From assembly GCF_013282805.1 (NCBI RefSeq), contig NZ_CP054038.1:1612001-1676000 (forward strand): a stretch of DNA of 64,000 bases, given 5' to 3'. The notes beneath the pieces are model-generated. The model was not told the DNA's origin. It saw only the letters and a program-made list of their open reading frames with translations, and did no database searches. Made by a program: the position numbers and the translations under genes. Of the stretch, positions 11,153 to 25,537 are shown piece by piece; position 1 is the stretch's first letter, and every line of letters starts with the position of its first letter. The stretch is from Microbacterium hominis. Lineage in GTDB: Bacteria; Actinomycetota; Actinomycetes; Actinomycetales; Microbacteriaceae.

Positions 11153-12009
11153 TCGTCCTGTGGGGCGCGACGCTTGCCGCGGGGCTCCTGCTCACGTTCT
11201 CGCCGTGGCTGTGGCCGTCGCGGCCGCGCCGAGTGCGCACCGCGGTCGCCGGGGGAGTGGCGGAGCGGGTGCTCGGGGCGGCGGGGTTCGCCTCGACGCC
11301 GGCGGCCGTGCTGTACGCCACCTCGGCCGGGGCGGGAGCGCTCGGCGCCGCCGTGGCATGGCTGATCGCGCCGGTCGCCCCCCTCGCGGCCGTCGCGGCC
11401 GTCGCCGGGGCCGCCGCGCCGACGATCTGGCTCCGCTCGCGTGCCGCGCGGCTGCGGAGGTCGCGGCGGACGCTGTGGCCTGATGTGTGCGATCTGCTCA
11501 TCGCGTCGGTGCGCGCGGGGATGTCGCTGCCCGATGCGGTGTCGGCGCTCGCTGATTCCGCACCCGCCCAGATGCGCCCGACCTTCGCGGCGTTCCGCGC
11601 CGACATGTCGGCGTCGGGGCACTTCGACTCGAGCATCGCCACGCTCAAGGCGACCCTCGCCGATCCGATCGCGGACCGCATCCTCGAGACGCTTCGCATG
11701 GCGCGCCAGGTCGGCGGAACCGAGCTGACCACCGTCCTGCGCTCGCTCGCGACCTCGGTGCGCTCGGAGGCGACGGTGCGCGCCGAGGTCGAGGCGCGGC
11801 AATCCTGGACCCGGGGTGCGGCCGTGCTGGGAGTCTCGGCGCCGTGGGTGATCCTCGCGATGCTCGCCCTGCGGCCGGAAGGCGCGCAGGCCTATGGGAG
11901 CCCGGAAGGGGTCGCCCTGGTGATCGGCGGCGCGGTGATGTCGGTGGTCGCGTTCCGCCTGATGATCCGGCTCGGTCGGCTGAGCGAACCGCGGCGGTGG
12001 TTCGAGTGA
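11149..12009 (+). CDS. tadB: TadB-like pilus assembly inner-membrane protein (type II secretion F domain)
   Basis: 286 residues. Two hydrophobic stretches at the N-terminus, a cytoplasmic T2SSF domain (about 110-220: ICDLLIASVRAGMSLPDAVSALAD) and two C-terminal membrane helices make a TadB layout. With TadC it would form the membrane platform for the TadA motor. It overlaps tadA by 4 nt and tadC by 4 nt (GTGA). Confidence 0.87.
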   Translation: MIVLWGATLAAGLLLTFSPWLWPSRPRRVRTAVAGGVAERVLGAAGFASTPAAVLYATSAGAGALGAAVAWLIAPVAPLAAVAAVAGAAAPTIWLRSRAARLRRSRRTLWPDVCDLLIASVRAGMSLPDAVSALADSAPAQMRPTFAAFRADMSASGHFDSSIATLKATLADPIADRILETLRMARQVGGTELTTVLRSLATSVRSEATVRAEVEARQSWTRGAAVLGVSAPWVILAMLALRPEGAQAYGSPEGVALVIGGAVMSVVAFRLMIRLGRLSEPRRWFE

Positions 12010-12856
12010 CCGGTGTCGCGATCGACGCCCTGGCGTACGCGCTGGTGCTCGGGATCTCGTTCGGCGTGGGCGTGTGCCTCCTGGTGTCCGTGGCGCCGCG
12101 CTGGGGCGCCCCGTCACTCGCGCGCCGGATCGCGCCGTACATCCGTGACGTCACCGACCCGCGCGGCACGTCGCTGCCGCTGCCGGGGAGGGCATGGGGA
12201 GCGCAGGAGATGTGGCGCTCGGCCGCACAGACCTTCTCCCGGTTCTCGAGCGGATCCGAGGTCACCCAGTTGCGGCTGAGGCAGGCCGGATGTGAGCTGG
12301 ACCTCGCCGGATTCCGCGGCCGTCAGCTCGGGTGGGCCGTCGCCGGCGTCGCTGTCGGCGCGGTGCTGCTCGTCGTGCTCGCGCTCGCGGGGCGCGGCGG
12401 ACCGGCCGTGTGGCTCCTGCCGGTCGTCGGCGCGGCGGCAGGTGCGCTCGGCTGCGACATCCACCTCACGCGGGCCGCCCGTGCTCGCGTCGCGAGGATC
12501 GAGGAGGAGCTCGCAACGGTGCTGGAGTTCATCGCGCTGTGCCTCGCTGCCGGGGAGGGCATCCACGATGCCCTGCGGCGAGTGAGCGCGCTCGGCGCCG
12601 GCGACCTGACCTCGGAGCTGCGCGGCGTCGTGGTCGAGGTCGGCACCGGGTCGCCGCTGGCGACCGCGCTCGGCGGCCTCGCGGGTGACCTCGAGATCGC
12701 CGCGCTGTCGAGGGCGATCGACCAGATCGTGGCCGCCCTCGAGCGCGGCGCGCCACTCGCGCAGGTGCTGCACGGGCAGGCCGCCGACGCGCGCGAGCAG
12801 TCCAAACGTGCGCTGATCGAGCAGGCGGGCCGCAAGGAGATCGCGATGCTCGTGCC
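12006..12856 (+). pseudogene. tadC: tadC, 5' portion, interrupted by an integrated element
   Basis: This carries the first 283 codons plus two bases of tadC, another T2SSF-domain platform protein of the Tad pilus. The GTG start overlaps the tadB stop. The frame runs into the inserted element after the codons for MLVP and reads foreign sequence to a stop at 13007, adding about 50 residues unlike any Tad protein. The chimera lacks the last membrane helix. Joining 12856 to 25456 restores an uninterrupted 310-residue TadC. The gene is therefore split, not decayed, and could be restored by excision. Confidence 0.88.
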
Positions 12857-12883
12857 CTACACCATTGCGAAAAGGTGCTACCA
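12835..12883 (+). other. attL: left junction of the element with tadC
   Basis: Host tadC sequence ends and element sequence begins around the GCC at 12854-12856, which is shared with attR. On the element side, CATTGCG (12863-12869) followed by a GGT-containing arm is the inverted partner of CGCAATG on the attR side. This is the half-site pattern expected of a large serine integrase. Confidence 0.75.
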
Positions 12884-12921
12884 AGGCGCGAATGCGAAAC
12901 GGGCACACCTGAGCGCTCGAC

Positions 12922-12927
12922 TAGGCT
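12922..12927 (+). promoter_or_regulatory. -10 box for a leaderless restriction endonuclease transcript
   Basis: TAGGCT lies 6 nt before the GTG at 12934, and no Shine-Dalgarno sequence is present. It lies wholly inside the element, so the endonuclease can be transcribed independently of tad read-through. The -35 region is poor. Confidence 0.4.
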
Positions 12928-12933
12928 CTGAGC

Positions 12934-13716
12934 GTGCCAGATGCCTCAGTTTCCGCCCCGGAAGACCTCACCAGCAAGATCGCATCCCTTCGCCCGCGCC
13001 AGCGTGAGCGCGTTGTGCAGCTTGTGGATGCCCTTATCGAAGGTGCCGTCTCCTGGATCAACCCCGAATCCGATTTCGCCGACCAGGACTGGGTCAACGA
13101 ATTCGGCGATCAGTTGCGGCTGCACCACGGCGGATCGGCCATCCCGCTCACCAAGGACAAGTTCGAATACGCGATGGTGAACACCTTCCTGGACTCGGGG
13201 CGCAGCAGCCGCAAGCTGGGCAACGGCAACCCCGGCGCAGACATCGAAGTTGACGGTGCCTTCTGGTCACTGAAGACCGAGGCGGCTGCTGCCATCAAGC
13301 CGGACAAGATTCACGTGTCCAAGGCGATGGAGCTTGGCAAGGGCAACTGGGAAACCGAGGAGGACATCGCCGTCCTGCGGGAGAAGTTCCTGGGCCACCT
13401 GACCAAGTACACACGGGTCTTCACGCTCCGCTGCCTGTCGCGCACACCGGCTGACGACTCATCGGTGGCCTACGCCTACGAGCTGGTGGAGATTCCGCAC
13501 GCGCTGCTGGAACGCGCCAAGGACGGGCGCATCGAGATGCGACACAACTCGCGGCAGAACCCGAAGCCCGCCTACTGCTACGTGAACGCCGAGGACGGCA
13601 CCCCCGGCTTCGAGCTGTACTTTGACGGGGGCACCGAGCGCAAGCTACAGATCAAGAACCTCTGGAAGCGTCACTGCATCGTTCACGCGAACTGGTCGTT
13701 CACTACGGCTTCGTAA
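12934..13716 (+). CDS. Type II restriction endonuclease, SmaI-like (predicted target CCCGGG)
   Basis: 260 residues, GTG start. From memory of R.SmaI I recognise matching blocks along the whole length: IHVSKAMELGKGNW, RVFTLRCL, YELVEIPHALLERAK, PKPAYCYV, LYFDGGTERKLQIKNL and HCIVHANWSF. The catalytic acidic/Lys cluster is probably NPGADIEVDG (99-108) followed by LKTE (113-116). The cytoplasmic enzyme should cut CCCGGG unless the partner methylase protects it; specificity is inferred from family. It converges tail-to-tail with the methyltransferase (14-bp overlap) and is the first element gene inside attL. Confidence 0.85.
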   Translation: MPDASVSAPEDLTSKIASLRPRQRERVVQLVDALIEGAVSWINPESDFADQDWVNEFGDQLRLHHGGSAIPLTKDKFEYAMVNTFLDSGRSSRKLGNGNPGADIEVDGAFWSLKTEAAAAIKPDKIHVSKAMELGKGNWETEEDIAVLREKFLGHLTKYTRVFTLRCLSRTPADDSSVAYAYELVEIPHALLERAKDGRIEMRHNSRQNPKPAYCYVNAEDGTPGFELYFDGGTERKLQIKNLWKRHCIVHANWSFTTAS

Positions 13717-14629
13717 CGGGCACGTCATAGCCCCCGCTCCGCTGCTGTAGGCGGCGCTTGGCGATCTCGACGTACTCCTCGTTCAGCTCAATGCCAACGA
13801 AGTCGCGCCCAGTGTTGCGCGCCACTTGGCCCACAGTGCCCGAGCCGAAGAACGGGTCCAGCACCACGTCGCCGGGCTTGGACGATGCCAGGATGCACGG
13901 CTCAACCAGCTTCGTGGGGAAGACGGCGAAGTGCGCCTCGCCATAGGGCTCGGTGTTCACGTTCCAGACCGAGCGCTTGCGTCGCGTCTTCTTGCCGTCG
14001 TCAGTCGGCTCAATGGTGGCCTGCACGTCGTAGCTGTACTTCAACGACTTGGTGAACATGAAGACGAACTCGTGGCTCCGTGTGGGGCGGTCGCGCACGC
14101 TCTCGGGGTTGGCGTTGGGCTTGTTCCACACGATGTCGGTGCGCAAGTACCAGCCAGCCTCTCGCAGCGCGAAGGCCAGCATCCAGGGCACACCCATCAG
14201 GTCCTTCGGCTTCATGCCCTCGGGCGTGTTGGGGCGGTAGTCCATGCCGCGTGCGTTCAGCTTCTTGTCCGCCTGCCGCCAAGTGCGTCCGCCCGACGTG
14301 TACCCATCACCTACGTTGAGCCAGAACACCCCATCGTTAGCAAGCACGCGACGGCATTCATCGAACACCCTCACCAGTGCTTCGATGTACTGCGGCAGCA
14401 GCGGCTCAGCCCCGATCTGCCCTTCCACCCCGTAGTCGCGGAGGCCCCAGTACGGGGGCGATGTGACGATGCACTGGACCGACTCATCCTCGAGCGTTGC
14501 AAGGCCGTCAAGCACGCTCGCGTGGACGATGCGACCGGTGCCCAGGTGGGCCTCGCCCGATGCGACTGTCAGGCGGTGTGGGCCAGTGGCCTCGGGCTCG
14601 TCGAACAGTGGCAAGGGCATGGTCGTCAT
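13703..14629 (-). CDS. Type II DNA methyltransferase, beta class (TSPPYW), SmaI-like partner
   Basis: 308 residues. The catalytic motif IV TSPPYWGLRDYG is near the N-terminus and the AdoMet-binding DPFFGSGTVGQVA is near the C-terminus. This IV-before-I order defines the beta class, in which TSPPYW is usual for N4-cytosine enzymes. It should protect the CCCGGG sites cut by the convergent endonuclease. The start is either ATG 14629 (a -10 box lies 7 nt upstream) or GTG 14635, two codons longer. Confidence 0.88.
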   Translation of the reverse strand: MTTMPLPLFDEPEATGPHRLTVASGEAHLGTGRIVHASVLDGLATLEDESVQCIVTSPPYWGLRDYGVEGQIGAEPLLPQYIEALVRVFDECRRVLANDGVFWLNVGDGYTSGGRTWRQADKKLNARGMDYRPNTPEGMKPKDLMGVPWMLAFALREAGWYLRTDIVWNKPNANPESVRDRPTRSHEFVFMFTKSLKYSYDVQATIEPTDDGKKTRRKRSVWNVNTEPYGEAHFAVFPTKLVEPCILASSKPGDVVLDPFFGSGTVGQVARNTGRDFVGIELNEEYVEIAKRRLQQRSGGYDVPVTKP

Positions 14630-14636
14630 GTCCACA

Positions 14637-14642
14637 ACTTTA
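14637..14642 (-). promoter_or_regulatory. -10 box for a leaderless methyltransferase transcript
   Basis: Read on the reverse strand, TAAAGT precedes the ATG at 14629 by 7 nt with no Shine-Dalgarno sequence. This would let the methylase be expressed on its own promoter, apart from the SOS-box operon upstream. Confidence 0.4.
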
Positions 14643-14738
14643 CTTTCCGCCTAGGACATGCCCGTCGATCGGCACGGGGCGGATCCCTGAGCGACCGCTG
14701 GCGAGCGAACGGGCCAGGCGTGCCCCAGCATGTCGGGA

Positions 14739-14764
14739 GACCCCCTAGCGTCGGCCAGAGGGTC
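14739..14764 (-). terminator. Hairpin after the 16370-14787 operon (related to two other element hairpins)
   Basis: GACCC and GGGTC arms enclose a loop with AGCG and GGCCAG. The same loop pattern recurs at 16545-16574 and 18418-18453, each just after the last gene of a leftward operon. There is no T-tract. The terminator role is inferred from position and recurrence. Confidence 0.45.
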
Positions 14765-14786
14765 GCCCGTGTCGGCAGCCGTGGGG

Positions 14787-15431
14787 CTACCGCGCCTTGT
14801 CAAACTGCACCAGCGCCGACCACGTGTGCCAGATGGGATGCTCGTAGCTGTACTCACCGGGCTGGCAGCCGTGGCAGGTGGCGTCGCCGCGCACATGTGA
14901 CGCGACCCGCAGGTAGGTCGCCTTCGGCTCGGTCAACGTGGCCAGCACGACAGGCTCACCGTCAACCCCGTCCACGCGGCTGGTGTCCACCGCGCCAAGG
15001 GTCTCGCCCGACAAGGCGTCAATGAGCTCAAACCTGACGACCTGGGTGCCCTGGGTGACCTCCACGCCGCGGATGCGTACCCCCGTGAGCTGCACCAGCA
15101 CTTCGCCCGCCTGCATGATGCGCGGTGCCTCGTACTGGATGGGGATGCCGTCACCCGGCTGGCTGGCATAGGTGCTCTCGGTGACGCGCACGATGTCAAC
15201 CTCGGCAGCAGCCAGGTCGGGGCGGGGTGTCATGGACGGGGCAGCCGTGGGCAGGGGCACGTCGGCCAGGGCGGGCGGATAGCTGGGTGCCAGCGCCACG
15301 GGGATGACCACCCCGGCAAGCACGCACGCCAGCAGCCCCCCGGCCACCATGCGCACGGCTGCCCTACGGACGCCGATGGGCTTGGGTGTCTGCACGTGCT
15401 GCCCCGTGGTGAACAGCTCGGGCAGGCTCAC
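14787..15431 (-). CDS. Membrane-anchored exported protein of unknown function
   Basis: 214 residues, GTG start overlapping the stop of the upstream 41-residue gene (GTGA). A single hydrophobic helix at about 21-43 anchors it; the remaining 170 residues would lie outside the cell. The exterior part is rich in beta-strand-like segments and contains a CHGC pair near the C-terminus that could form a disulfide or bind metal. I do not recognise the family. Its place in an SOS-box operon next to the restriction-modification pair makes an envelope or immunity role possible, but this is speculation. Confidence 0.65.
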   Translation of the reverse strand: MSLPELFTTGQHVQTPKPIGVRRAAVRMVAGGLLACVLAGVVIPVALAPSYPPALADVPLPTAAPSMTPRPDLAAAEVDIVRVTESTYASQPGDGIPIQYEAPRIMQAGEVLVQLTGVRIRGVEVTQGTQVVRFELIDALSGETLGAVDTSRVDGVDGEPVVLATLTEPKATYLRVASHVRGDATCHGCQPGEYSYEHPIWHTWSALVQFDKAR

Positions 15432-15553
15432 AGCGCGCACACCTTGTCGGCAGCGAGGTCGAACATGCCCCAGGTCACCAGCAGGATGGACGCCGACGTT
15501 ACAGCCGCAGCGGCGATGTTGCCCCAGTTGGGGACGAGGCGCGTGCGCTTCAT
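15428..15553 (-). CDS. Small single-helix membrane protein
   Basis: 41 residues: a short basic N-terminus, one hydrophobic helix (about 12-34) and a short tail ending KVCAL. Start and stop overlap both neighbours by 4 nt (ATGA upstream, GTGA downstream), which is the main reason to believe it is real. It may work with the exported protein encoded next. Confidence 0.6.
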   Translation of the reverse strand: MKRTRLVPNWGNIAAAAVTSASILLVTWGMFDLAADKVCAL

Positions 15554-15807
15554 GCGTGGCCTCCCCGCGTGCGGGCCTGCTCGTCGTTCCAACGCGCCTG
15601 GTGACGGTAGAGCACCGTGCGCACCACGACCCCGGCGTCGTCCAGCAGCAGCACACCGCACGCGATGGACCCGCGCTGGCGGACCTCCCCGTGCTGGTTG
15701 CCGTAGACGACCTCGGGCTGCTGCACGCACTGCTCGACCTCGGTGAGCGTGATGCCACGGGCAACCATCTTCTCGGCCGCGTGCGTCGTGACGATGACCC
15801 GGCTCAC
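15550..15807 (-). CDS. DUF4258-like small protein
   Basis: 85 residues. HAAEKMVARGITLTEVEQCVQQPEVVY at the N-terminus resembles DUF4258, a family related in fold to RelE/BrnT-type toxins. A central GVLLLDDAGVVVRTVLYR strand pair fits. No antitoxin is recognisable beside it, so a toxin role is only a possibility. It is coupled by 4-nt overlaps to both neighbours. Confidence 0.6.
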   Translation of the reverse strand: MSRVIVTTHAAEKMVARGITLTEVEQCVQQPEVVYGNQHGEVRQRGSIACGVLLLDDAGVVVRTVLYRHQARWNDEQARTRGGHA

Positions 15808-16370
15808 GCCTGGGCCTCGGCAGCCTTGAGCATGACGTTGATGTGACGGCTGAGCGCGGCCTTGCTGCCGTAGGACTGACCGCAGGTGCAGCCGTTGGCC
15901 TTGTTCGGGTTGACCTCGTGCACGACCGGCGCGCTGGCGTCCACGTGGCGCTGCTCGGCGATGACCACGCCTTCCTCGGTGGCGACCGTGCTGCCCTTGC
16001 TGGCGCGGGGCTTCTTGGCGGCAGGCGTGGCCTTGGCAGCCGGTGCCTCGGTCTTGGTGGCGCGGGGCTTGCGCTCGGGCTTCGGGGCGCGCTTGGGCGG
16101 GGTGACCGTCCAGCCGGTGGGCAGGCTGCCCGCGTTGGCGATGGCCCGCTGGGTGAGCGCCTCCAGATCGCCGGCCTCGATGCTCTCCAGGAGCGCCTGG
16201 TAGGCCAGCGCCCGGATGCCCTTGAGGCGAGCACGCTGCACGCTGACGCCGAACGTGTCAACGACCTGCTGAATGGCGGCTTCGATGGTCTCCAGGGCCT
16301 CGTCGGCAGTGGCCTGCTCAACGGTCTCGACGGGCTTCAGGGACTTGGTAGCGGTGCGCTTGGTAGCCAT
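15804..16370 (-). CDS. Lys/Ala-rich protein with C-terminal Cys/His finger-like motif
   Basis: 188 residues. An N-terminal helical domain (about 20-90) is followed by a basic Pro/Ala/Lys linker resembling histone-H1-like tails. A C-terminal segment, CTCGQSYGSKAALSRHINVML, looks like a degenerate C2H2 finger with only one obvious His. DNA binding is inferred from composition. I chose the ATG at 16370 over the in-frame start at 16439 because GAAAGG sits 9 nt before it, in the same leader found before the gene at 18192. First gene of an operon behind an SOS box. Confidence 0.65.
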   Translation of the reverse strand: MATKRTATKSLKPVETVEQATADEALETIEAAIQQVVDTFGVSVQRARLKGIRALAYQALLESIEAGDLEALTQRAIANAGSLPTGWTVTPPKRAPKPERKPRATKTEAPAAKATPAAKKPRASKGSTVATEEGVVIAEQRHVDASAPVVHEVNPNKANGCTCGQSYGSKAALSRHINVMLKAAEAQA

Positions 16371-16410
16371 GATGTGGAACCTTTCGTGGGGCTGGTGTGT
16401 GGAACTTGAC

Positions 16411-16426
16411 TCGAACGTTTGTTCGG
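16411..16426. promoter_or_regulatory. LexA/SOS box, one mismatch
   Basis: TCGAACGTTTGTTCGG matches the actinobacterial LexA consensus TCGAAC-N4-GTTCGA at 11 of 12 positions. It lies 40 bp upstream of the ATG at 16370, where a promoter for that operon should be. Confidence 0.7.
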
Positions 16427-16544
16427 TTAGTTGAACCATGCATCACCGTCCCGAGGGCATCCAAGACCGGGCCTCAGCCCGGCGTGTAGACCGCTGCTGC
16501 ACTATCGGGAACGGTCCCCTTCCGGAACTTGCCCGGCACAGCAA

Positions 16545-16574
16545 GAGACCCCCAGCGCTCGGGCCAGGGGGCTC
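16545..16574 (-). terminator. Hairpin after the resolvase operon
   Basis: GAG-CCCCC and GGGGG-CTC arms enclose a loop containing AGCGCTCGGGCCA. It lies just beyond the resolvase stop codon at 16587 and belongs to the recurring hairpin family also seen at 14739 and 18418. Confidence 0.55.
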
Positions 16575-16586
16575 AGTGCAGGGGTG

Positions 16587-17246
16587 TCAGGCCACGGCTG
16601 CCAGCTTGGTCGTCAGTCGGCGCTGGGCCTTGGCCACGCCGTTGACAGTCCAGGGGAGGCCGGTAGCCGTGGTGTGTCCCTCGGCGTTGAGTGCGGCAGC
16701 CGTAGCAGCGAGGGTGCGCGTGCGGCGCAGCGCCAGCAGCCGGTCGCCCGTGGCCGTGGGCAGTACCGACACGCGGCCCATGTGTCGCCCCTGGCGCTTG
16801 GCTGCCTGCATCGCCGCGCTGGTGCGCTCACCAATCACGCGGCGCTCCCACTGGGCTACCGACATCATCACGTTGGCCACAAGCTCGCCGGTCGGGGTGC
16901 TGGTGTCCACTCCCAGGTCAATGGCGACGAGCGCCCAGCCGCGTGAGCGGGCCAGCTCCAGCACGCGGGCGAAGTCCGCAACGCTACGGCTCAGGCGGTC
17001 CAGCTTGGCGACTATCAGACCTCCCACGTCCCGCTTCTTAGGGCTGGTGTTCAGTCGGGCGAGGGCTTCCTGTAGCTGAGGCCTATCCAGAGACTTGGCA
17101 CTGATGCCAGCATCCTCGTACCAGATGATCTCCCAGTCGTGCGCACTGGCGTAGTGCTGGATTGCATCACGTTGCGCGTCAAGCCCCAGGCCGCTGCTCG
17201 CTTGCTCGGTCGTGCTGACACGCAAGTACCCAATCATCGTCGTCAT
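16587..17246 (-). CDS. Small serine recombinase (resolvase/invertase family)
   Basis: 219 residues. The N-terminal catalytic domain has YLRVSTTEQ with Ser11 as nucleophile, then LDAQRDAI, the LIVAKLDRLSRSVADF block and GELVANVMMSVAQWERRVIGERT on helix E. A C-terminal helix-turn-helix-like segment follows (about 165-210). It may resolve element multimers or invert a segment. The ATG at 17246 has GGAGG 8 nt upstream and overlaps the HNH stop (ATGA). Third gene of an SOS-box operon and separate from the large integrase. Confidence 0.9.
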   Translation of the reverse strand: MTTMIGYLRVSTTEQASSGLGLDAQRDAIQHYASAHDWEIIWYEDAGISAKSLDRPQLQEALARLNTSPKKRDVGGLIVAKLDRLSRSVADFARVLELARSRGWALVAIDLGVDTSTPTGELVANVMMSVAQWERRVIGERTSAAMQAAKRQGRHMGRVSVLPTATGDRLLALRRTRTLAATAAALNAEGHTTATGLPWTVNGVAKAQRRLTTKLAAVA

Positions 17247-18010
17247 GCGCTGGCCTCCGCCCAGTTGCCACGGCTGGCCGACCGTAGGCGGTGGCAGTTG
17301 GCGCACACAAGCTCGCACTTCGCGATCTCAGCAGCGATCTCTTCCAGGGTGTAGGCCCGCGTGCTGCCGTCGGGGAGGGTGTGGAGCACCCTGCTCTGGA
17401 CCATGTCGGCCACCCCGGCCGTCTTGACATGCCCCGGCAGGTGGTCAAACTCCATCACGGTGGCGGGGTGCTGCACGCCACAGTCGTGACAAGGGTTCGC
17501 CTTCTGTTCAGCCATCCATGCGCGGCGCTTGGCCCTCCATGACTTACGCTGTCGGGTCTTGTCCCACCTGGCAGCAGTGCGCAGCCGGTGGCAGTTGGCA
17601 CAGACGACCTCACACTTGGCAAGCTCAGCCTCAAGCTGGCCCAAGGGGTATCTGCTCACTACCATCCTTGACAAGTCAGCGACCTTGTCCACGCCTGGCA
17701 GGTGGTCCAGATCGACCTGTCGGGGGTCGTAGCGCTTACCACAGTCGGAGCACGGCTGGGCCTTGGCAGCGTCCACGATGGCACGGCGCTCGGCGACCTG
17801 TAGTCGGGTAGCTGCTGGCGTGACTGGTAGGCCAGAAGCACGCAGGTCGGCCTTCCTCCGCTTTCTAGCTGCCGAGCTGGTTGAGATGCCAGCAGCACGG
17901 CGCTCAGCTTTACGGATGTTGCTACACACCCTGCACTGGCCATTCGAGCCCACGTTCTCCGGTGTCCGCTCGTGCCCGCGCTTGCACAGCCGGGGTTCCG
18001 GGGCGCTCAT
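17243..18010 (-). CDS. Tandem HNH-type zinc-finger nuclease-like protein
   Basis: 255 residues with two copies of one unit: CxxC (CSDCGKRYDP, then CHDCGVQHPA), a DHLPG His motif, and a closing CANCHRLR, spaced about 100 residues apart. That is the metal-binding frame of HNH endonucleases, duplicated in a single chain. A further CKRGHERTPENVG...CRVCSNIR finger is at the N-terminus. Nuclease action on DNA is inferred. HNH proteins in phages often sit with packaging genes, but none are present here. It lies between two coupled genes in an SOS-box operon. Confidence 0.8.
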   Translation of the reverse strand: MSAPEPRLCKRGHERTPENVGSNGQCRVCSNIRKAERRAAGISTSSAARKRRKADLRASGLPVTPAATRLQVAERRAIVDAAKAQPCSDCGKRYDPRQVDLDHLPGVDKVADLSRMVVSRYPLGQLEAELAKCEVVCANCHRLRTAARWDKTRQRKSWRAKRRAWMAEQKANPCHDCGVQHPATVMEFDHLPGHVKTAGVADMVQSRVLHTLPDGSTRAYTLEEIAAEIAKCELVCANCHRLRSASRGNWAEASA

Positions 18011-18477: not shown

Positions 18478-18518
18478 GGGCGGCAGGTAGAAAGGAGTCA
18501 GGAAAGACCCTGCCGCCC
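18478..18518 (-). terminator. Second hairpin directly after the 18530 gene
   Basis: GGGCGGCAGG (18478-18487) pairs with CCTGCCGCCC (18509-18518) across a 21-nt loop, starting 12 bp past the stop codon of the 18530 gene. With the hairpin at 18418 it fills most of the 337-bp gap between 18192 and 18530. Confidence 0.5.
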
Positions 18519-18529
18519 CGTCTGTGGGA

Positions 18530-19108
18530 TCAGCCGTTGGCGTCCGGAGCCTGGTAGGCGGCACCGTTGGCCATGTTGTACCCGACGCCGCTGGTGTAGC
18601 CCTCCACCCAGGTCAGGGCTTCCGCAACGCCACTGGTGTCGGGGTGAGCCGCCTGCCACGCTTCCGCAGCATTGATCCAGCCACTGTTCCGGGCCTTGGT
18701 GCCGATCGCGTGGGCCATCGTGTCGTCGCTGGTAGCCACGGCATCGGCCAGCACAGCGAGGGCTTCCTTCTCGTCCTGCACGCGACGGGCGCGGTCGGCA
18801 GCGTCACGACGCAGCATGATGCTGTTCGCGTCCTGCGGAAGGTTGCCACGCAGCTCCTTCTCCAGGCTGGCCTTGAGGCCCTCGACGTAGGACTGCTGCT
18901 CTCCCAGGATGCCCTGGATCTTGGCCACGGTCTGCTCCAGCAGGCGTGCGGCGTCCTCCTCCTGGGCCTGGGCGCTCAGCCGCGTGTCTTCCATGATGAC
19001 CTTGCGACCGTCGTAGTACTCCTGACGGGCTGCACGGGCGCGGCTGTGGAAGGCCTCGTGGCTGGCGATGACGTCGTTCTGGACGGCGAGAGGGGTGCGC
19101 TTGCTCAT
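18530..19108 (-). CDS. Coiled-coil protein of unknown function, last gene of the replication operon
   Basis: 192 residues. The middle (about 25-130) is strongly helical and charged with heptad-like spacing, so a coiled coil is likely. The C-terminal 60 residues are Ala/Gly-rich. It resembles phage scaffold or accessory proteins only in general character, and I do not assign a family. The ATG overlaps the WhiB stop (ATGA) and has an AAGGA site upstream. Confidence 0.6.
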   Translation of the reverse strand: MSKRTPLAVQNDVIASHEAFHSRARAARQEYYDGRKVIMEDTRLSAQAQEEDAARLLEQTVAKIQGILGEQQSYVEGLKASLEKELRGNLPQDANSIMLRRDAADRARRVQDEKEALAVLADAVATSDDTMAHAIGTKARNSGWINAAEAWQAAHPDTSGVAEALTWVEGYTSGVGYNMANGAAYQAPDANG

Positions 19109-19416
19109 GATGTGTGTTCCTTACTGGTTGTGATGGGTGCCGGGGAGACCGCCCCGGCGTCGGTGGTCTTGCGGGTGATGCGTGGTGTGCGCCCGTACTT
19201 GCGGCCTGCCCAGTAGCCCGCCTGCACCTTGGCTGCCGTGGCGTAGGCGTGGCACTCGATGAGCACTTCACACGACGCGCACAAGCTGCCCATCAGGGCG
19301 AGGTCATCCGGAGTCAGGCGCTCATCCGTCGTGTACAGCGGGTCGCCAGCGCACGGGGGCACGGTGTCCTCCAGCGCCTTGTCCAGCGCCTGCCAGGCGA
19401 CGTCCTCCTGGGTCAC
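19105..19416 (-). CDS. WhiB-family Fe-S transcriptional regulator
   Basis: 103 residues. It has one Cys at about 23 and a CASCEVLIEC cluster (C-x2-C-x5-C) that together form the four ligands of a 4Fe-4S centre, then GYWAGRKYG in place of the usual GVWGG turn. WhiB proteins bind sigma-factor region 4 and are often carried by actinophages. A regulatory role in the element's own cycle is likely but inferred. Start is GTG, overlapping the preceding stop. Confidence 0.85.
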   Translation of the reverse strand: MTQEDVAWQALDKALEDTVPPCAGDPLYTTDERLTPDDLALMGSLCASCEVLIECHAYATAAKVQAGYWAGRKYGRTPRITRKTTDAGAVSPAPITTSKEHTS

Positions 19417-19670
19417 TGTGTGGCCCGGTACAGGCGCTCGGCGCGGGCACCAGCCCGGCGAGCCTTCCGCTCGTCGTAGCTGTACTCGACCAGCCCTGCA
19501 CGCCTGTAGGCCGACAGCAGCGTGCGGACTTCCTCAGCGGGGAGGCCAGGGGTAGCGTCCAGCAGCTCGCGCAGCGCGTGGGGCTTGCCGTCTGCCAGCA
19601 CAGCCCACAGCGCTTCGTCGGTAGCGGTGTCCGGCTCGGCTGCTGCCTGCTCGGTCGTTGCGTCGGTCAT
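19413..19670 (-). CDS. Small winged-helix-like protein
   Basis: 85 residues. DEALWAVLADGKPHALRELLDATPGLPAEEVRTLLSAYRRAGLVEYSY has the spacing of a winged helix-turn-helix, so DNA binding is likely. I chose ATG 19670 because GAGAGGAACACC precedes it. An in-frame ATG at 19703 overlaps the upstream stop but lacks a ribosome site. Probably another regulator of the element. Confidence 0.6.
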   Translation of the reverse strand: MTDATTEQAAAEPDTATDEALWAVLADGKPHALRELLDATPGLPAEEVRTLLSAYRRAGLVEYSYDERKARRAGARAERLYRATQ

Positions 19671-19702
19671 GGTGTTCCTCTCAGTCGGGGTTGCGATGGT
19701 CA

Positions 19703-19999
19703 TCAGGGCAGCCGGTAGCCGTGCATGCGCTGCACGACCGTGACGTTGGACGCGGCCTCCACGTGGCGCGTAACGGGCACCGAGCGGACCTCGCCCGCCT
19801 TGCGTCCGTAGTGCAGCAGCGCCTTGACGACGCGGCGACTGACGCCGGTCTTGTGGACGACCTCGCTGACGGTCCATGTGCCCTTGGCCAGCAGCGCGCT
19901 GATCTTGCGCCAGTCGTTGTCCAGCCGGTGCGTGCTGCCGTTGCCCTGGAAGAACACGACGTAGGGGTTGTCTTCCGGTGTCGGGTCGGGGGTGGTCAT
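19703..19999 (-). CDS. Small helix-turn-helix-like protein
   Basis: 98 residues. The central KISALLAKGTWTVSEVVHKTGVSRRVVKALLHYGRKAGEV pattern is a plausible helix-turn-helix (TVSEVVHKTGVSRRVVKALL). The ATG at 19999 has GAAAGGA upstream. A 130-bp non-coding stretch (20000-20129) separates it from the previous gene; I see no clear promoter in it. Confidence 0.6.
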   Translation of the reverse strand: MTTPDPTPEDNPYVVFFQGNGSTHRLDNDWRKISALLAKGTWTVSEVVHKTGVSRRVVKALLHYGRKAGEVRSVPVTRHVEAASNVTVVQRMHGYRLP

Positions 20000-20129
20000 G
20001 ATGTGCGTCCTTTCGGGTTTTCTGTGGAGGCGCGGCAGGTGACGCTCTCCGGGGTGGGCTGTGTGCTGCTGCTTCGGCTCGTCCATGGGTGCTGCTCGGT
20101 ACTCGGCCGCACAGCCGCAGAGGTTTCGC

Positions 20130-20321
20130 TCACGAGGTCACCCCGTTCAGCCGGGGGCAGGTGTCGGCATGGAAGACGTGCAGGTGGTGAATGCCGTACT
20201 CGTCCAGTTCCAGGCGCTGGGTGCTGTCGCAGTCGGGGCATCTGTACGAGTTGGCGTACTGCACCGCCTGGGGATCAGTGCGCCCCGCCTTGGCTGCTGC
20301 TCGGCGCTGCTGTCGGTTCAT
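20130..20321 (-). CDS. Small zinc-ribbon-like protein
   Basis: 63 residues. A basic RQQRRAAAKAGR start is followed by CPDC and, 25 residues on, HHLHVFHADTC. A Cys2/His-Cys metal site is plausible. The ATG overlaps the stop of the preceding small gene (TGATG). Function unknown. Confidence 0.6.
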   Translation of the reverse strand: MNRQQRRAAAKAGRTDPQAVQYANSYRCPDCDSTQRLELDEYGIHHLHVFHADTCPRLNGVTS

Positions 20322-20503
20322 CACTGATCACCTCTTGCCTGCCAGTCACCGGCACGGCCATTCACCGTGCACTGGCACCCAAGGGTGTGTGCCGTGGGGC
20401 GGCGAAAGGGGGACGGGGAAGTGTTTTTCCTCGGGATTACGCGGTTCTCGGCCACGGCGTTCGGCGGCTGACGACGGTGAACGACCCCGGTGAAGCTGTT
20501 CAT
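20321..20503 (-). CDS. Small basic protein of unknown function
   Basis: 60 residues, rich in Arg and Pro. No family is recognised. It is accepted because the ATG overlaps the helicase stop (ATGA), has GGAG 5 nt before it, and its stop overlaps the next start. Confidence 0.5.
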   Translation of the reverse strand: MNSFTGVVHRRQPPNAVAENRVIPRKNTSPSPFRRPTAHTLGCQCTVNGRAGDWQARGDQ

Positions 20504-21669
20504 GACTGCTCCGCCTTCCGGTACTTGGTGCCGTTGCCCTTGCCTGTACGGACGACCGCGCCAGCGCCGATGAGCTTCTTCATGGCGGTCTCGTAGCGCT
20601 CGTCGGACCACGCTCCGGAGGGGTCGTCCCAGCCCTCGGCGAAGTCCGCGCGCTTGTGCTCTTCGCCGTCCACAAGCACCGCCAGGATGTGCGCCTGGTA
20701 GGGGTCGTGTGTCATGGCCATGCGCACGGCCACCTTCGACGGCCCCACGTCCTCCAGGTGCCAGCCGGGGATCGTCACGGTCGCAGCGTTGCGCTGCTTG
20801 CCCCCACGGCTGAACTCGGTGCTGATGACGAAGGTGCTGTTCGGCTCGGCTGCCTCGTCCTTCTGAGGCTTCTTGGACGGCACCAGCATCAGCACCGTGT
20901 CAACGTCGGCCCAGAGCGCCTTCGCCCCACGCAGCAGCCCTCCGGCGTTCGCGTGATGCATGATGACGACGGTGCAGCCCGGACGAGCGCGCCGGATGCG
21001 CACGGCTGCCTTGACCGCAGTGGCCATCTGCACGTTGTCGTTCTCGTTGAGCAGCCCGCCAAGCTGGCTGAGCGTGTCGATGACGAGCACGTCGATGCCC
21101 TTGCGCACGACTGTCACGCACATGCGCTGCACGGCTGCCGGGTCGGACAGGTTGAAGTCCTCGCCGTCGTGCACGAGGTAGTCGTGCTTGGGCACGGTGC
21201 GCTCGTTGTACTGCTCCCACGCAGCGACGCGGTCGGGGAAGAACTCCGAGCCCTCAGCTATCAGGTAGCCCACGCGGCCCTGGACCACGTTGTGCCCTTC
21301 CCACGGCAGGCCGAGAGCGATGTGCGCTGTCAGGTCCACGCCGACGAAGGTCTTGCCGATGTTGGTCGGCCCACCGATCACGCAGATGGAGCTCTCAGCG
21401 ATCAAGCCTTCGATCTTCCACTGGGGCTTGGGGCGGGCGCGCAGCTTGTCGAGCGTCATCATCGGGTAGCCGGTAGTGGACGGGTCGGCGTCAGGTTCCG
21501 CCTCGGCGTGCAGCGTGCTCCACTCCGCCTCCAGCGCGGCTTCCCGCTCTACCTCGCGCCGTGCCCGGTGCTGGCCCCGCAAGAGCGGCAGCATCCGCTG
21601 ATACTCGCGCTCCTCGGCTTCTTCGGGCGTCTCGGTGCCGTCCTCGGTTGATGGTGCAGGGGTGGTCAT
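20500..21669 (-). CDS. RepA-like hexameric helicase/AAA ATPase (replication)
   Basis: 389 residues. After about 70 charged residues a RecA-like ATPase fold begins: Walker A GGPTNIGKT (99-107), Walker B DVLVIDTLSQ, and the sensor segment CTVVIMHHANAGGLLRGAKALWADVDTVLML. This is the RSF1010 RepA/DnaB-related group common in plasmid and phage replication modules. The C-terminal 70 residues look like a winged helix. It overlaps the primase gene upstream (ATGA). The pair probably opens and primes the element's own origin. Confidence 0.87.
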   Translation of the reverse strand: MTTPAPSTEDGTETPEEAEEREYQRMLPLLRGQHRARREVEREAALEAEWSTLHAEAEPDADPSTTGYPMMTLDKLRARPKPQWKIEGLIAESSICVIGGPTNIGKTFVGVDLTAHIALGLPWEGHNVVQGRVGYLIAEGSEFFPDRVAAWEQYNERTVPKHDYLVHDGEDFNLSDPAAVQRMCVTVVRKGIDVLVIDTLSQLGGLLNENDNVQMATAVKAAVRIRRARPGCTVVIMHHANAGGLLRGAKALWADVDTVLMLVPSKKPQKDEAAEPNSTFVISTEFSRGGKQRNAATVTIPGWHLEDVGPSKVAVRMAMTHDPYQAHILAVLVDGEEHKRADFAEGWDDPSGAWSDERYETAMKKLIGAGAVVRTGKGNGTKYRKAEQS

Positions 21670-22394
21670 GCTGATGCCTTTCTGACGGACTCGACGATGC
21701 GTCGGGCCTCCTGTGGTGTGAAGCCGAGGTCTTCCGCAGCCTCGATGAGCTTGCGAAGCTGCCGCTCGGGCACTTGCTGCTCGATGGCCCTACGCACCGC
21801 CCAGTGATAGGCGTCGTGCCGTTGACCCTTGGGCTGCTTGCGCACGTAGCTGATGAGACCGCCGACGTCCTGGCTGTTGCCGCCCTGGCGCGGGCTGTAC
21901 ACCGTGGGCTGGATCAGGCTGATGACCTGGCGGGGGAGGCGGGCCACGGGCACGTCAGCGCCCCACCTGTACGGCTTGCCGGTGTCGGGGTGGATGCTGG
22001 GCGGCATCACGACCTGACCGTTGGACAGCACATCGATGCCCTCGGGCATGCGCACCTTGGTCGTCTTCGGGAACGGGCGCAGGTAGTGCAGGTGCACGCT
22101 GCCGTCACCACGGCCCGAACGGATGCTCAGCGTCGGGGGCATGCGCACCTTGGCCAAGTCCTCCAGGGCTGCCAGGCTGCCGCCATTGTGCGGGTCGATG
22201 TCGATGACGACGTGGTTGTCCGGGATGACCGCGCCGACGTTGAAGTCCTGCTCGGCCCACCACTCGCGGATCGTGGCCTTGTGTGTGGTGGCCTGCTGCA
22301 TCCAGTCGGTCAGGAAGGGCTTCTTGCCGTTCAACGGCAGCACGCGCCAGCCCGCAGCAGCCAGCCGCAGCGCAGCACGAACGGGCACGCTCAC
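21666..22394 (-). CDS. Primase-polymerase (PrimPol, N-terminal domain type)
   Basis: 242 residues, GTG start. The bifunctional primase/polymerase domain spans about 5-175: AALRLAAAGWRVLPLNGKKP, the catalytic DIDPHNGG (65-72), SGRGDGSVHLHY and GQVVMPPSIHPDTGKPYRW. The remaining residues are helical. Together with the helicase it forms a split Prim-Rep module, as in plasmids and phage satellites, where one fused protein is also common. Confidence 0.87.
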   Translation of the reverse strand: MSVPVRAALRLAAAGWRVLPLNGKKPFLTDWMQQATTHKATIREWWAEQDFNVGAVIPDNHVVIDIDPHNGGSLAALEDLAKVRMPPTLSIRSGRGDGSVHLHYLRPFPKTTKVRMPEGIDVLSNGQVVMPPSIHPDTGKPYRWGADVPVARLPRQVISLIQPTVYSPRQGGNSQDVGGLISYVRKQPKGQRHDAYHWAVRRAIEQQVPERQLRKLIEAAEDLGFTPQEARRIVESVRKASA

Positions 22395-22723
22395 GGCTGC
22401 ACCCCGTGGTCCGGAATGGGGCGGTTCCGGTCAATCGCCGCGCGCTTGCGCACCTGAGCGACGACCTTGTTCACCCACGCCTGGCCCAGCAGCACGTCCA
22501 GCGCAGCGACCTCGTCCCACGGCAGCCCCGGCGTGGCCGACAGCTCGGTGTGCACGGCCTTCAGCGCCACAGCAGCCGCCATGCGCACGCGGGCCTCGGC
22601 TACGGGGGACCAGGTGGCAGGGTCGCCCGCAGCAGCCAGGGCAGGCTCCATGCGGCGCAGCACGTCGGCGGGCACGCTGCCGTCGCCAAGCAGCGCACGC
22701 ACCGGCCTACGCGGGGCGCTCAC
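22391..22723 (-). CDS. Helical protein of unknown function
   Basis: 110 residues, Ala-rich and mostly helical, GTG start. No motif recognised. It is coupled by GTGA overlaps to the genes on both sides, directly before the primase, so an accessory replication role is possible. Confidence 0.55.
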   Translation of the reverse strand: MSAPRRPVRALLGDGSVPADVLRRMEPALAAAGDPATWSPVAEARVRMAAAVALKAVHTELSATPGLPWDEVAALDVLLGQAWVNKVVAQVRKRAAIDRNRPIPDHGVQP

Positions 22724-23118
22724 GACTCGTCCTCGTCGTCAGTCTCAATGACCGCGTACAGCCGGGGCACCGCAGCCGAGTCGGGCACGAAGTACATGAC
22801 GCTCTCGCACTTGTCGCACTTCGGGAAGGTGGGGTCGGTCTGGATGCCCTCGCCCGTGTGCCGGTGCCACAGCGCCTCCAGCCCAGCGCGCAGCCCCGCC
22901 TCGTCGGGCCAGGATGCGAAGTCGTAGTTGAACGCACCGCCGACGCTGTAGATGTGGATGTAGCCCCAGCCCTGGGCCTGGGTGTCGGAAAGATTCACCC
23001 CGCGTGCAGCCCAAGGCTCGAACCAGCGGAGGTCGGGACCGTGCTTGAGCACGTTGGCAGCTTCGGTCTCGGTGAGCGAGCGCTTGCTGGGGTAGTTGAC
23101 CTTGATGCGCGTAGTCAT
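22720..23118 (-). CDS. Hypothetical protein with a CxxC pair
   Basis: 132 residues. The C-terminal part has CDKCESVMYFVP, a single CxxC; the middle is aromatic-rich (WGYIHIYSVGGAFNYDF). The tail is acidic. No family recognised. ATG overlaps the preceding stop (ATGA). Confidence 0.55.
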   Translation of the reverse strand: MTTRIKVNYPSKRSLTETEAANVLKHGPDLRWFEPWAARGVNLSDTQAQGWGYIHIYSVGGAFNYDFASWPDEAGLRAGLEALWHRHTGEGIQTDPTFPKCDKCESVMYFVPDSAAVPRLYAVIETDDEDES

Positions 23119-23330
23119 CGCACACCGCCAGCCCGCAGCAGACCGGTCAGCCGGTGGATCTGCTGGTTGTTCAGCGGGGGCGCAGCAGCCAGCGCCTTGT
23201 CGATGGCGTCAGCGATCTTGGCTTCGGCCAGGTTGCGCCGGGCGATCGCCTCACGCTCGGGGTCCTTGAGACGCACAGCGACGGCCACGGGGCCAGCCGC
23301 CTGATGCGGGGTGAGTGGTGTGTCAGCCAC
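23115..23330 (-). CDS. Small helical protein, first gene of the replication operon
   Basis: 71 residues, Ala-rich, GTG start with AAGGA about 9 nt upstream. No family recognised. It heads the leftward run of coupled genes that ends at 18530, and a 16-bp palindrome (23347-23362) lies just before it. Confidence 0.5.
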   Translation of the reverse strand: MADTPLTPHQAAGPVAVAVRLKDPEREAIARRNLAEAKIADAIDKALAAAPPLNNQQIHRLTGLLRAGGVR

Positions 23331-23346
23331 GGGAGCATTCCTTCTG

Positions 23347-23421
23347 CGGAGTAGGTACTCCGGCAGGGAGCTCGACCGTCGGTCTGGGCACCGGGATATA
23401 TACGCGTCGTAGCGCGTCGTA
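23347..23421. promoter_or_regulatory. Control region before the replication operon: palindrome, TATATA box, phased direct repeats
   Basis: It contains a perfect inverted repeat CGGAGTA-GG-TACTCCG (23347-23362), TATATA at 23397-23402 and two CGCGTCGTA repeats (23403-23411, 23413-23421) with a 10-bp period. These fit an operator and promoter, or a small origin, but only two repeat copies are present. No LexA box is here. Confidence 0.5.
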
Positions 23422-23491
23422 CCGGCTGTGATGCCCTCGTGACCCTGACTTATATGCCGCCGATCACCAGCGGTGTGAAGTTGTGGAGTGG

Positions 23492-23773
23492 CTAGACCGT
23501 GAGGTACTGGCCTTCGTTCGCAGCCTGCTGAACCATGTGCTGCACGATGTCGGGGTCGATCCTAACGCGACGACCGCACGTGCAGGCGAACACCGGGCGA
23601 GCCTCCATCTGGATGCCCTCGGGGCCAGCGCTCACGAACATGTCGGTGCCGTTCCGGTCGGCGCGCTGCCAGACACCCTCGACCCGCTGGTAGCGGGCAA
23701 GGCGTCGCTTCGGGTGCGGCTGCTGGGCGGTGCCCCTGCAGACGACCTTGACGACGAATGGGATGTTTGGCAT
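23492..23773 (-). CDS. Hypothetical protein with CTCG motif
   Basis: 93 residues. The C-terminal half has ARPVFACTCGRRVRIDPD, like a half zinc ribbon; one further Cys is near the N-terminus. I chose the ATG at 23773 over the upstream start at 23797 because the conserved-looking strand begins right there. It stands alone between the integrase and the replication operon. The 238 bp between it and the integrase contain no gene that I can support. Confidence 0.5.
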   Translation of the reverse strand: MPNIPFVVKVVCRGTAQQPHPKRRLARYQRVEGVWQRADRNGTDMFVSAGPEGIQMEARPVFACTCGRRVRIDPDIVQHMVQQAANEGQYLTV

Positions 23774-24011
23774 GTGCCCTAGCCTGCCCCGGCGCAAGAA
23801 GGCCTCACAAGATCAAAACCCGAGCCGGCGACACAACTCCCTGGTCAGCGGACCAAAGATTTTTCTTGCGACAAGGTGTGTTGGAGTGGTATTGATCACG
23901 TCTAGCCGACGCCTGCGACCGCCTGCCCGACTGGTGCAGCCGTGGGGCACGTGGGGTAGCTGGGGTGCTGCCGTGTCGCCCTAGCCGACGTAGAGTTCCG
24001 GCCTTGGTGGA

Positions 24012-25427
24012 CTACGCCTTCCAGTGCACCTGCACCGTGTCCGGGTCGAACGCCTTGCCGCTGCCACTGGGCAGGATGGTCACCGTCACAAGCTCCTGCA
24101 GGACGGCGCGCTTGCTGTCCATCGGCAAGGCCTCCCACACCTGGCGCGCGTTCGCGCCGACAAGCTCAGCGGGCACGGCAGCAGGCAGCGCCTTGTCCAC
24201 CGCAGCGGCAGCCGTGGCCCGGTCAGCCCGCAGCCGCTCGGTGATGCGTGCAAGCTGGGCGGGGTCGATGGTGCCCTCGGCGAACATGTCAGCCGCGTTG
24301 GCCAGTCGGGCATCGATCGCCTCCAGCGTGTCGCGTGCAGCTTGCAGCGCAGCCGGGTCGCCCTGGGTGAACAACTGAGCAGCATCGGGCATCTGCAACC
24401 TGCCGACGACGATGCCTTCCACCAGTGCGTCAACGTGGTCTTGCTTGCGGCGCACGCGGTAGCACTCGCTGCACACGTAGCTCGGCGGCTGGCGCTTGCT
24501 GTTCCCGTTGGCCTGGCGCGTCCACCGGCCTACAGCGCGCACCATCACGCCTCCGCACGGCACAAGCTCGCCAGCGTCGTCCAGGGTGCCGTCGCACCGG
24601 CCACATCGGGCGATGCCGCCCAGCAGGTATTTCGGCTCCCGGCCAGCCGGGGCAGTGCGGCGCACGGGGTCTGTCAGCACGGCCTTGATCCGCTCGTGCG
24701 TGTCCTCGTCCAGCACGCGGGGGCTGTCGGCGGGGGTGCGCCCGACCACCTGCCCACGGTGCACCGTCAGCCCCGCAAGGCTCGGGCGGAGTAGTAGCTG
24801 CTTCAGTGTCGTGCTGTTCCACTTGGCACCACGGCCAGGCGTCGGCGCGTGCTGGGCGTCCAAGTCCTTGCAGATGGACCGCAGCGAGTCACCATCGAGC
24901 ACGCGCTGCACCGCAGCCCGGATCGTCGCGGCCTCGTCGTCGTGCAGCACCACGGCAGCCCCGTCGCGCCGGTAGCCGTAGCCCACACGGCCGGAGTGGA
25001 CCCCGCTGGCTGCCCGCTGCACGTTCGCTGCGACCTGGCGCGTGGCCTTCTGCTCGCCCTCGTACTGCGACCACGCTGCCACTGTGCGCGCGACTGCACG
25101 GCCTGCCGGGGTAGTGAGGTCCAGGGTGCCAGCCGTCACGGTGTACACCGGCACGTTCAGGGCGATGACGCGCTCCAGGTCGCGAGTCAGGCGCAGCAGC
25201 CGGTCCTGATGCCACGTGATGATCGCCGTGGGCTGGGCGTCCAGCATGGCCTCGAAGCCGGGGCGCACCTTGCCGCTCGTAGCGCTGATGTCGTTATCGG
25301 TGTAGACCTGCACCACGCGCAGCCCGAGCGACTTGGCCAGCTTGCGGCAGTCGGCCTCCTGGCGGGCAACGGCCAGCGCTTCGCCCGTGCGGTCGAGACT
25401 GACGCGCGTGTATATGACGCAATCCAT
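24012..25427 (-). CDS. int: Large serine recombinase (site-specific integrase)
   Basis: 471 residues. The N-terminal catalytic domain has YTRVS (Ser10 nucleophile), ATSGKVRPGFEAML and WHQDRLLRLTRDLERV. The Recombinase domain follows (about 150-260, GRVGYGYRRDG), then a zinc ribbon with CGRCDG and CSEC, and a C-terminal coiled region. It would join attP to attB in tadC using a 2-bp overlap. It starts 26 bp from the attR core, the usual place for an integrase gene. A TAACGT box 6 nt before the ATG suggests a leaderless transcript. Excision would probably need a directionality factor; none is obvious. Confidence 0.93.
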   Translation of the reverse strand: MDCVIYTRVSLDRTGEALAVARQEADCRKLAKSLGLRVVQVYTDNDISATSGKVRPGFEAMLDAQPTAIITWHQDRLLRLTRDLERVIALNVPVYTVTAGTLDLTTPAGRAVARTVAAWSQYEGEQKATRQVAANVQRAASGVHSGRVGYGYRRDGAAVVLHDDEAATIRAAVQRVLDGDSLRSICKDLDAQHAPTPGRGAKWNSTTLKQLLLRPSLAGLTVHRGQVVGRTPADSPRVLDEDTHERIKAVLTDPVRRTAPAGREPKYLLGGIARCGRCDGTLDDAGELVPCGGVMVRAVGRWTRQANGNSKRQPPSYVCSECYRVRRKQDHVDALVEGIVVGRLQMPDAAQLFTQGDPAALQAARDTLEAIDARLANAADMFAEGTIDPAQLARITERLRADRATAAAAVDKALPAAVPAELVGANARQVWEALPMDSKRAVLQELVTVTILPSGSGKAFDPDTVQVHWKA

Positions 25428-25475
25428 GAAGGTACGTTAGCGCAATGCTCTGGCCGCTCGTCTTCCTCATCCTGC
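25428..25475 (+). other. attR: right junction of the element with tadC
   Basis: Element sequence ends with a GGTA-containing arm and CGCAATG (25441-25447), then the GCC at 25453-25455 shared with attL; tadC resumes at 25456. Combining this arm with the attL arm gives an attP with inverted CGCAATG/CATTGCG half-sites centred close to the GCC. Confidence 0.75.
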
Positions 25476-25537
25476 CCCTCAGTGTGCTGTTCGCGGTGTT
25501 CCCGGGCATCGTGATGCTTCGACTCGGACTGGGCTGA
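25456..25537 (+). pseudogene. tadC: tadC, 3' portion (last 27 codons)
   Basis: It encodes the last membrane helix of TadC (LVFLILPLSVLFAVFPG) and ends at TGA 25535-25537. Joined to 12006-12856 it makes 933 nt, exactly 311 codons with no stop. An in-frame ATG at 25445 could start a 30-residue peptide, but it has no ribosome site. Confidence 0.85.

Follow-up and report, generated by a model that had tools for sequence, protein, structure and literature searches.

A serine-integrase element within the Tad pilus gene tadC of Microbacterium hominis and the recurrence of such insertions in predicted transformation genes

Prophages in comK of Listeria and the skin element carry a serine integrase and, upon excision, restore the interrupted gene exactly and in frame. 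An element that we describe here from Microbacterium hominis shares both features, with restoration obtained as an in silico join, and differs from the Listeria comK prophages in that no structural phage genes were found in its scanned open reading frames (ORFs). It splits tadC, a gene of the Tad pilus operon, within a window of 64,000 nucleotides (G000:C1:1612001-1676000) of a genome (G000) that consists of one contig of 3,908,277 bases.

The closest precedent argued that mobile genetic elements (prophages and islands) in comYC, comFA, comK and comM shield themselves from removal by transformation (Croucher et al. 2016, PMC4774983). As in that study, site-specific elements with related and divergent integrases split genes with known or, here, predicted roles in transformation across species, and a competence pilin is among the targets; here, in contrast, the hosts are actinobacterial, the pilus is of the Tad/Flp type, the targets are tadC, flp, tadA and dprA, and the tadC elements with both ends found span 7.7-15.5 kb, a single remnant excepted. 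In Acinetobacter baumannii, many kinds of element likewise split comM, with Tn7-like AbaR islands in more than half of the inactivations (PMC11472951), whereas serine and tyrosine integrases are involved here, at about four comM positions. Subsequent studies of Acinetobacter and Legionella (PMC11472951) and of pneumococcus (PMC12637031) support a conflict between elements and transformation. The term 'actinobact' is absent from the main text of PMC4774983, and 'actinob' and 'actino' each occur 0 times in PMC11472951 and PMC12637031, respectively. Finally, tadA, tadB, tadC and flp of a Flp/Tad pilus have been described in an actinobacterium, Micrococcus luteus, in which transformation was lost when any ORF of the two tad clusters, with a single exception, was deleted, although polar effects may have contributed (Angelov et al. 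2015, PMC4322843); those lesions were laboratory deletions, whereas the ones in Microbacterium were made by elements. Among the open-licence papers listed by our searches, none had reported that elements integrate into tad genes or that elements of this kind occur in Actinobacteria.

We think it likely that the M. hominis element, which encodes a large serine recombinase (LSR, its integrase), disables natural transformation and thereby escapes curing, rather than serving as a pilus switch. Somewhat less firmly, we lean towards the broader view that, in Microbacterium and its relatives, several LSR lineages have converged on at least five transformation genes (tadA, tadC, flp, dprA and comM), that tyrosine integrases have done so for comM at least, and that at any given moment about one in six species genomes carries a passenger that disables DNA uptake or the recombination of that DNA.

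The interruption of tadC and its attachment sites

The tad operon of G000 is ordered tadA, tadB, tadC, followed by flp and tadE beyond the element (Table 1). The first 283 codons of tadC lie upstream of the insertion, which falls at the CC of the conserved proline codon between the MLVP and LVFL halves of a motif; integration costs the protein its last 26 residues and separates flp and tadE from the upstream operon. When position 12856 is joined in silico to position 25456, a single open TadC frame of 310 codons results, which ends in GRKEIAMLVPLVFLILPLSVLFAVFPGIVMLRLGLG; the C-terminus of intact Microbacterium TadC, such as that of L006 (GRKEIYMLVPLVFLILPLSVLFAVFPGIFMLRLGIG), is nearly the same. 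Excision would give back an in-frame TadC with a homologue-like end and, because gene and trait would return together, the host would be disabled only while the element stays. A preliminary description of the locus had claimed this clean split and in-frame restoration, both of which hold, and had listed its finding under 12006-25537; that interval is the whole split gene, and the element proper occupies 12857-25455. Two other accounts were rejected. First, an element supplying its own tadC 3' end is at odds with the frame that follows attL (YTIAKRCYQG...), which is unlike the TadC tail when compared by eye, no search having been made. Second, a long-dead insertion is at odds with the integrase, attachment (att) sites and reading frames, all of which are intact.

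The crossover could be placed closely. GCC is common to both ends (12854-12856 and 25453-25455), as the preliminary description had noted, and CC falls at the proline codon on both junctions in all 20 genomes for which both junctions were found, the window genome included. Further, attP, formed by joining the element ends, mirrors about this CC in 15 of 24 pairs, the top score among 51 centres tested, such that this element has a dyad-symmetric attP around a 2-bp core shared with attB. Across 20 elements, CC is the best attP centre in 11, and three of the remaining nine belong to a second LSR group (G037, G177 and G258), whose attP centre lies 6 bp upstream. The site match is more than chance, and the anatomy of the element is that of ordinary LSR integration.

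Recurrence in tadC and in other predicted transformation genes

Using an intact TadC query against an even draw of 198 genomes, we found tadC in 173 (25 gave no match); the gene continues across the site in 156 of these, breaks off there in 16 and ends with the contig in one (G137); two frameshifted copies that reach the C-terminus (G091 and G184) were counted as running through. The intact ends match that of the joined M. hominis sequence, for which the preliminary description had proposed to search in related genomes. Seven more cut genes among 26 genomes added for holding a related integrase bring the total to 23. The tail lies within 20 kb of the 5' piece in 20 of these 23, at a spacing of 453 bp to 15.5 kb, and was not found in G036 and G156 (none in about 58 kb) or in G035; elements with both ends found measure 7.7-15.5 kb, apart from one 453-bp remnant. 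None of the 23 5' pieces contains a stop and all 20 recovered tails keep the consensus, which fits the earlier wording that the gene is "paused rather than dead". Pairwise ratios of nonsynonymous to synonymous substitution (dN/dS) for the 5' piece are 0.066-0.077 among the occupied sisters G136, G204 and G035, and 0.054-0.189 for the empty pairs printed.

Most LSRs at tadC are relatives of the window LSR, and those of the second group are 23-26% like it over half the length. Close integrases (82 and 77%) adjoin the tadC tail in two Cryobacterium genomes, and in G305 the tail adjoins an integrase on a short contig without the 5' half. That contig (L103, G305:C388) comes from a record titled Stenotrophomonas maltophilia strain P13, has a Microbacterium-type tad locus and is placed in Microbacterium by the genome collection. 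Two further loci are irregular. L075 (G035) is a hybrid in which a tadC 5' piece with an attL resembling that of the window element is followed by the 3' half of flp, neither the tadC tail nor the flp 5' half having been found between them, as if two adjacent elements had recombined. Of the 453 bp that separate the tadC halves at L074:2315-2768 (G019), 330 bp are 77% similar to a segment of the G069 element; this insert is a remnant left by deletion, with no room for an integrase.

We rejected descent of a single element as the cause of this recurrence. G002 and G187 carry elements that share 91% identity across 7.7 kb, next to 1.8 kb of host DNA that shares 69%, and tadC elements therefore move between species. 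In line with this, integrases are more alike than host tadC in six of seven pairs. The exception is G136/G204, in which tadC is 93% and the integrases are 84% alike; these sister species therefore hold different elements in one site.

Beyond tadC, matches to the window LSR at E<=1e-40 comprise 56 loci in 51 of 366 Microbacterium genomes, and 38 of these adjoin one of five genes: tadC (17), flp (7), tadA (6, of which two are a tadA-like gene only 42-45% identical to the window tadA), comM (5) or dprA (3). Three loci are unclear (G090, G309 and G364), although flp of G090 is cut at the usual point; the G090 integrase runs into the contig end. DprA and ComM were identified via Pfam and NCBIfam on whole copies, and the tadA and dprA counts come from integrase loci rather than from genus-wide scans. 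For most of the tadC and flp loci we recovered the host gene on either side of the insertion, and likewise for several, not all, of the dprA, comM and tadA loci. Specifically, flp is split within its hydrophobic helix, between GWVLVTLMTAGL and VVLIW, with halves 7.0-8.8 kb apart in seven loci, including one from Agromyces salentinus; comM is split at about residue 479 (G022, G121 and G289), dprA at about residue 251 (G229) and tadA directly after the Walker A motif (G337). At L141 and L151 (G335 and G244), tadA seems to be broken twice: the element interrupts it after about residue 140, and another break follows at about 160-167. G335 also has a second LSR-like match 2-3 kb further on.

In a phylogeny of 59 integrases, seven from other collections and the rest from 52 of the 56 loci (G090, G309, G364 and the G258 copy were left out), the tadC users fall into a single clade (100/99) that includes the window LSR. 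Users of flp, tadA, comM and dprA each need two changes, and "transformation versus other" as a target needs five, at least three of them forced by supported branches; several branches are long, and single placements are unsure. Of the 40 rows that fall outside the tadC clade, 24 nevertheless target tadC, flp, tadA, comM or dprA.

Scans of flp and comM across the 366 genomes extended this beyond known integrases. For flp, found in 315 genomes, the 29 with low or double matches were opened (G061 and G039, weak and with stops, were dropped, and nine single weak matches were left unclassed): two pieces lie on one contig in 15, 1.0-50.6 kb apart, and on different contigs in three, which were counted apart (G237, G143 and G090). 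For comM, found in 359, 51 genomes were opened, and two pieces lie on one contig in 26, about 8-66 kb apart; nine with halves on different contigs, possibly assembly breaks, were counted apart. Frameshift-like comM copies were dropped (G308, G304, G255, G171, G299 and G129), others were taken as whole (G142, G217, G230, G286, G165, G003, G019 and G000), and G001 and G030 have one half only. The comM cuts fall at about four positions, and for most of them, as for a few flp cuts, the insert is known from spacing alone. Among cuts without a known integrase, five of the eight in flp were opened and all five end in an LSR; five of the 21 in comM were opened, and here an LSR lies at the end of two and a tyrosine integrase at the end of another two, whereas one (G306) has neither within its outer 4 kb. 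The two tyrosine integrases (L167 and L172; G081 and G288) lie at the edge of comM cut at about residue 347, with halves 52 and 21 kb apart. By their predicted family, the tyrosine integrases on comM are an independent recombinase superfamily acting on the same gene. Altogether, tadC, flp or comM is interrupted in 33 of the 198 even-draw genomes, and one gene is struck across species, by divergent integrases as well as related ones.

These distributions bear on whether target function is selected at all. LSRs might simply use conserved DNA in non-essential genes and keep a site by descent, tad and com genes being merely such genes. Each target class is indeed largely one or two clades, intact genes show almost no variation in the tail downstream of the tadC site, and some LSRs adjoin other genes, such as a hrpB-like helicase gene at its P-loop (by eye; L135, G026), while others of the set adjoin HNH genes. 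However, several separate target changes remain inside one pathway, more distant LSRs reach flp and comM, tyrosine integrases reach comM, and the second LSR group strikes tadC 6 bp away, such that we regard an absence of selection on function as unlikely.

The same distributions bear on the proposal of the preliminary description that integration state switches pilus formation, as with comK or sigK. Under such active lysogeny, regulated excision and reintegration would form a pilus on/off switch that serves the host, like the Listeria comK phage or the skin element in sigK. The exact restoration of the frame in the in silico join and the intact halves (23/23 and 20/20) would be expected, and the occupation of all three sisters (G136, G204 and G035), together with integrases of 84% beside tadC of 93% in G136/G204, would fit a site that was emptied and refilled, or separately invaded. 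However, no excision regulator was identified, related integrases also lie in dprA and comM, which are not pilus genes, and some copies look past repair, namely tadA with its second break in G244 and G335 and the 453-bp remnant in tadC of G019, which no longer look reversible. A switch that benefits the host was not supported; it is a weaker reading than that of disabled transformation, and we consider it quite unlikely. The comparison with comK itself remains apt, since comK is a competence gene.

Gene content of the element

The element has a G+C content of 67.1%, and its integrase gene begins 28 bp inside the right end. Resolvase (PF00239, 1.3e-20) and Recombinase (PF07508, 8.5e-12) domains occur together in this protein, which is the architecture of an LSR; its top NCBIfam match, far under the cut-off, is XisF, the excision recombinase of the fdxN element. 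Scans of 19 element ORFs against Pfam, and of 10 of them against PHROGs, gave no capsid, terminase, tail or lysis genes, and the Pfam scan of the 19 gave no relaxase or transfer genes. A complete prophage was rejected, as the scanned ORFs lack structural genes, and we propose instead a small integrative element, putatively capable of replication and akin to phage satellites or integrative plasmids. Plasmid and phage collections held no relative at >=60% identity; the viral_contigs collection held one, adjoining the 3' half of flp. The 71-amino-acid protein is a candidate recombination directionality factor or replication helper.

Table 1. Features of the split tadC locus, in window positions
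Feature	Position	Strand	Basis
tadA, Tad pilus ATPase (T2SSE)	9995..11152	+	Pfam T2SSE 2.9e-40; top NCBIfam match TadA family ATPase, under its cut-off
tadB, pilus platform protein (T2SSF)	11149..12009	+	Pfam T2SSF 2e-10
tadC 5' piece, 283 of 310 codons plus 2 nt of codon 284	12006..12856	+	T2SSF 5.3e-11, truncated domain; 63% identity to G159 TadC
attL crossover dinucleotide CC	12855..12856		junctions, attP symmetry
Integrated element, 12,599 bp	12857..25455		junction comparison
SmaI-like type II restriction endonuclease	12934..13716	+	Pfam SmaI 9.2e-66
N4/N6 DNA methyltransferase, presumably paired with the SmaI-like enzyme	13703..14635	-	Pfam N6_N4_Mtase 9.7e-56; PADLOC type II MTase
Small serine resolvase	16587..17318	-	Pfam Resolvase 1.6e-40
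HNH-type endonuclease	17243..18010	-	PHROG 3106, 1e-43
WhiB-like regulator	19105..19416	-	Pfam Whib 2.4e-5
AAA replicative helicase-like ATPase	20500..21669	-	Pfam AAA_25 8e-31; phage primase/helicase PHROGs
Prim-pol	21666..22394	-	Pfam Prim-Pol 2e-31
71-amino-acid protein	23115..23330	-	tblastn: present in 10 of 19 other tadC elements compared
LSR (integrase), 471 amino acids	24012..25427	-	Pfam Resolvase + Recombinase; PHROG 95 integrase 1.3e-82; tadC clade of tree
attR crossover dinucleotide CC	25454..25455		junctions, attP symmetry
tadC 3' piece (final base of the Pro codon, 26 C-terminal codons, stop)	25456..25537	+	in silico join
flp pilin, whole here, split in relatives	25557..25772	+	no Pfam match
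tadE-like pseudopilin	25774..26193	+	Pfam TadE 2.7e-10

The SmaI site, CCCGGG, is absent from the element against 5.5 expected, and occurs 35 times against 37.5 expected in the remaining window; GGGCCC is likewise absent against 3.7 expected, with no avoidance across the remaining window. The restriction pair, and the fact that three of the five targets are pilus genes, could suggest superinfection exclusion, in which loss of the Tad pilus removes a receptor for pilus-dependent phages. However, DprA and ComM act inside the cell, and we know of no Tad-dependent phage of Microbacterium (no search was made); we hold this to be very improbable.

Transformation as the probable trait shared by the targets

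Comparison of sequences documents the integration site, its att sites, predicted in-frame restorability, movement between species and recurrence. Because DprA and ComM are not parts of the pilus, the trait common to the targets is probably natural transformation rather than the pilus. This choice of target is not ordinary, and it suggests that integrated elements and transformation are in conflict in Actinobacteria. The LSR takes the CC of the proline codon in the TadC motif as attB, and insertion truncates TadC and severs flp and tadE from the upstream operon. If the Microbacterium Tad pilus is a DNA-uptake pilus, as in Micrococcus luteus, which belongs to the same order, a carrier would be untransformable, and recombination with DNA taken up from an empty relative could not remove its element. 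Selection for such escape from curing may then have led related and unrelated integrases to settle on tadC, flp, tadA, dprA and comM. G000 itself retains ComEC, a ComEA-like frame (by eye), DprA, ComM, TadA, TadB and Flp; with ComEC, the ComEA-like frame, DprA and ComM intact, the tadC cut is therefore the sole lesion seen among the genes examined.

Several points weigh against this reading. First, the identities of the host genes rest on homology and the requirement for transformation is known from M. luteus alone, from which we infer the DNA-uptake role of the Microbacterium pilus; Tad pili also serve adhesion, and in the open-licence literature we found no report of natural transformation in Microbacterium. 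Second, the integrase set was seeded from a tadC-borne LSR, and the pattern is therefore partly inherited site preference. Third, at 15 of the 56 loci the adjoining genes are others (HNH, SIP and hrpB among them); these were named by eye from translations rather than through a family search, such that a transformation gene could be missed. Fourth, ten genomes hold two of the five lesions, the second adding little, and the split counts cover tadC, flp and comM. Finally, the zinc ribbon PF13408, present in most other LSRs scanned at flp, comM and tadC, has no match in the element LSR at E<=1e-3.

If disabled transformation is nevertheless what these insertions share, Tad-dependent transformation would be widespread in these Actinobacteria and potent enough to be a main threat to integrated elements, and transformation genes would constitute a predictable set of attB sites. 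Our results also yield named att sites in tadC and flp, with candidates in tadA, comM and dprA, and serine integrases with defined targets. Many Microbacterium would be predicted to be transformable, with some strains silent owing to a removable element. The conflict between mobile elements and transformation, known from Firmicutes and Proteobacteria, would thereby extend to Actinobacteria, in which Tad pili have been tied to DNA uptake in one species.

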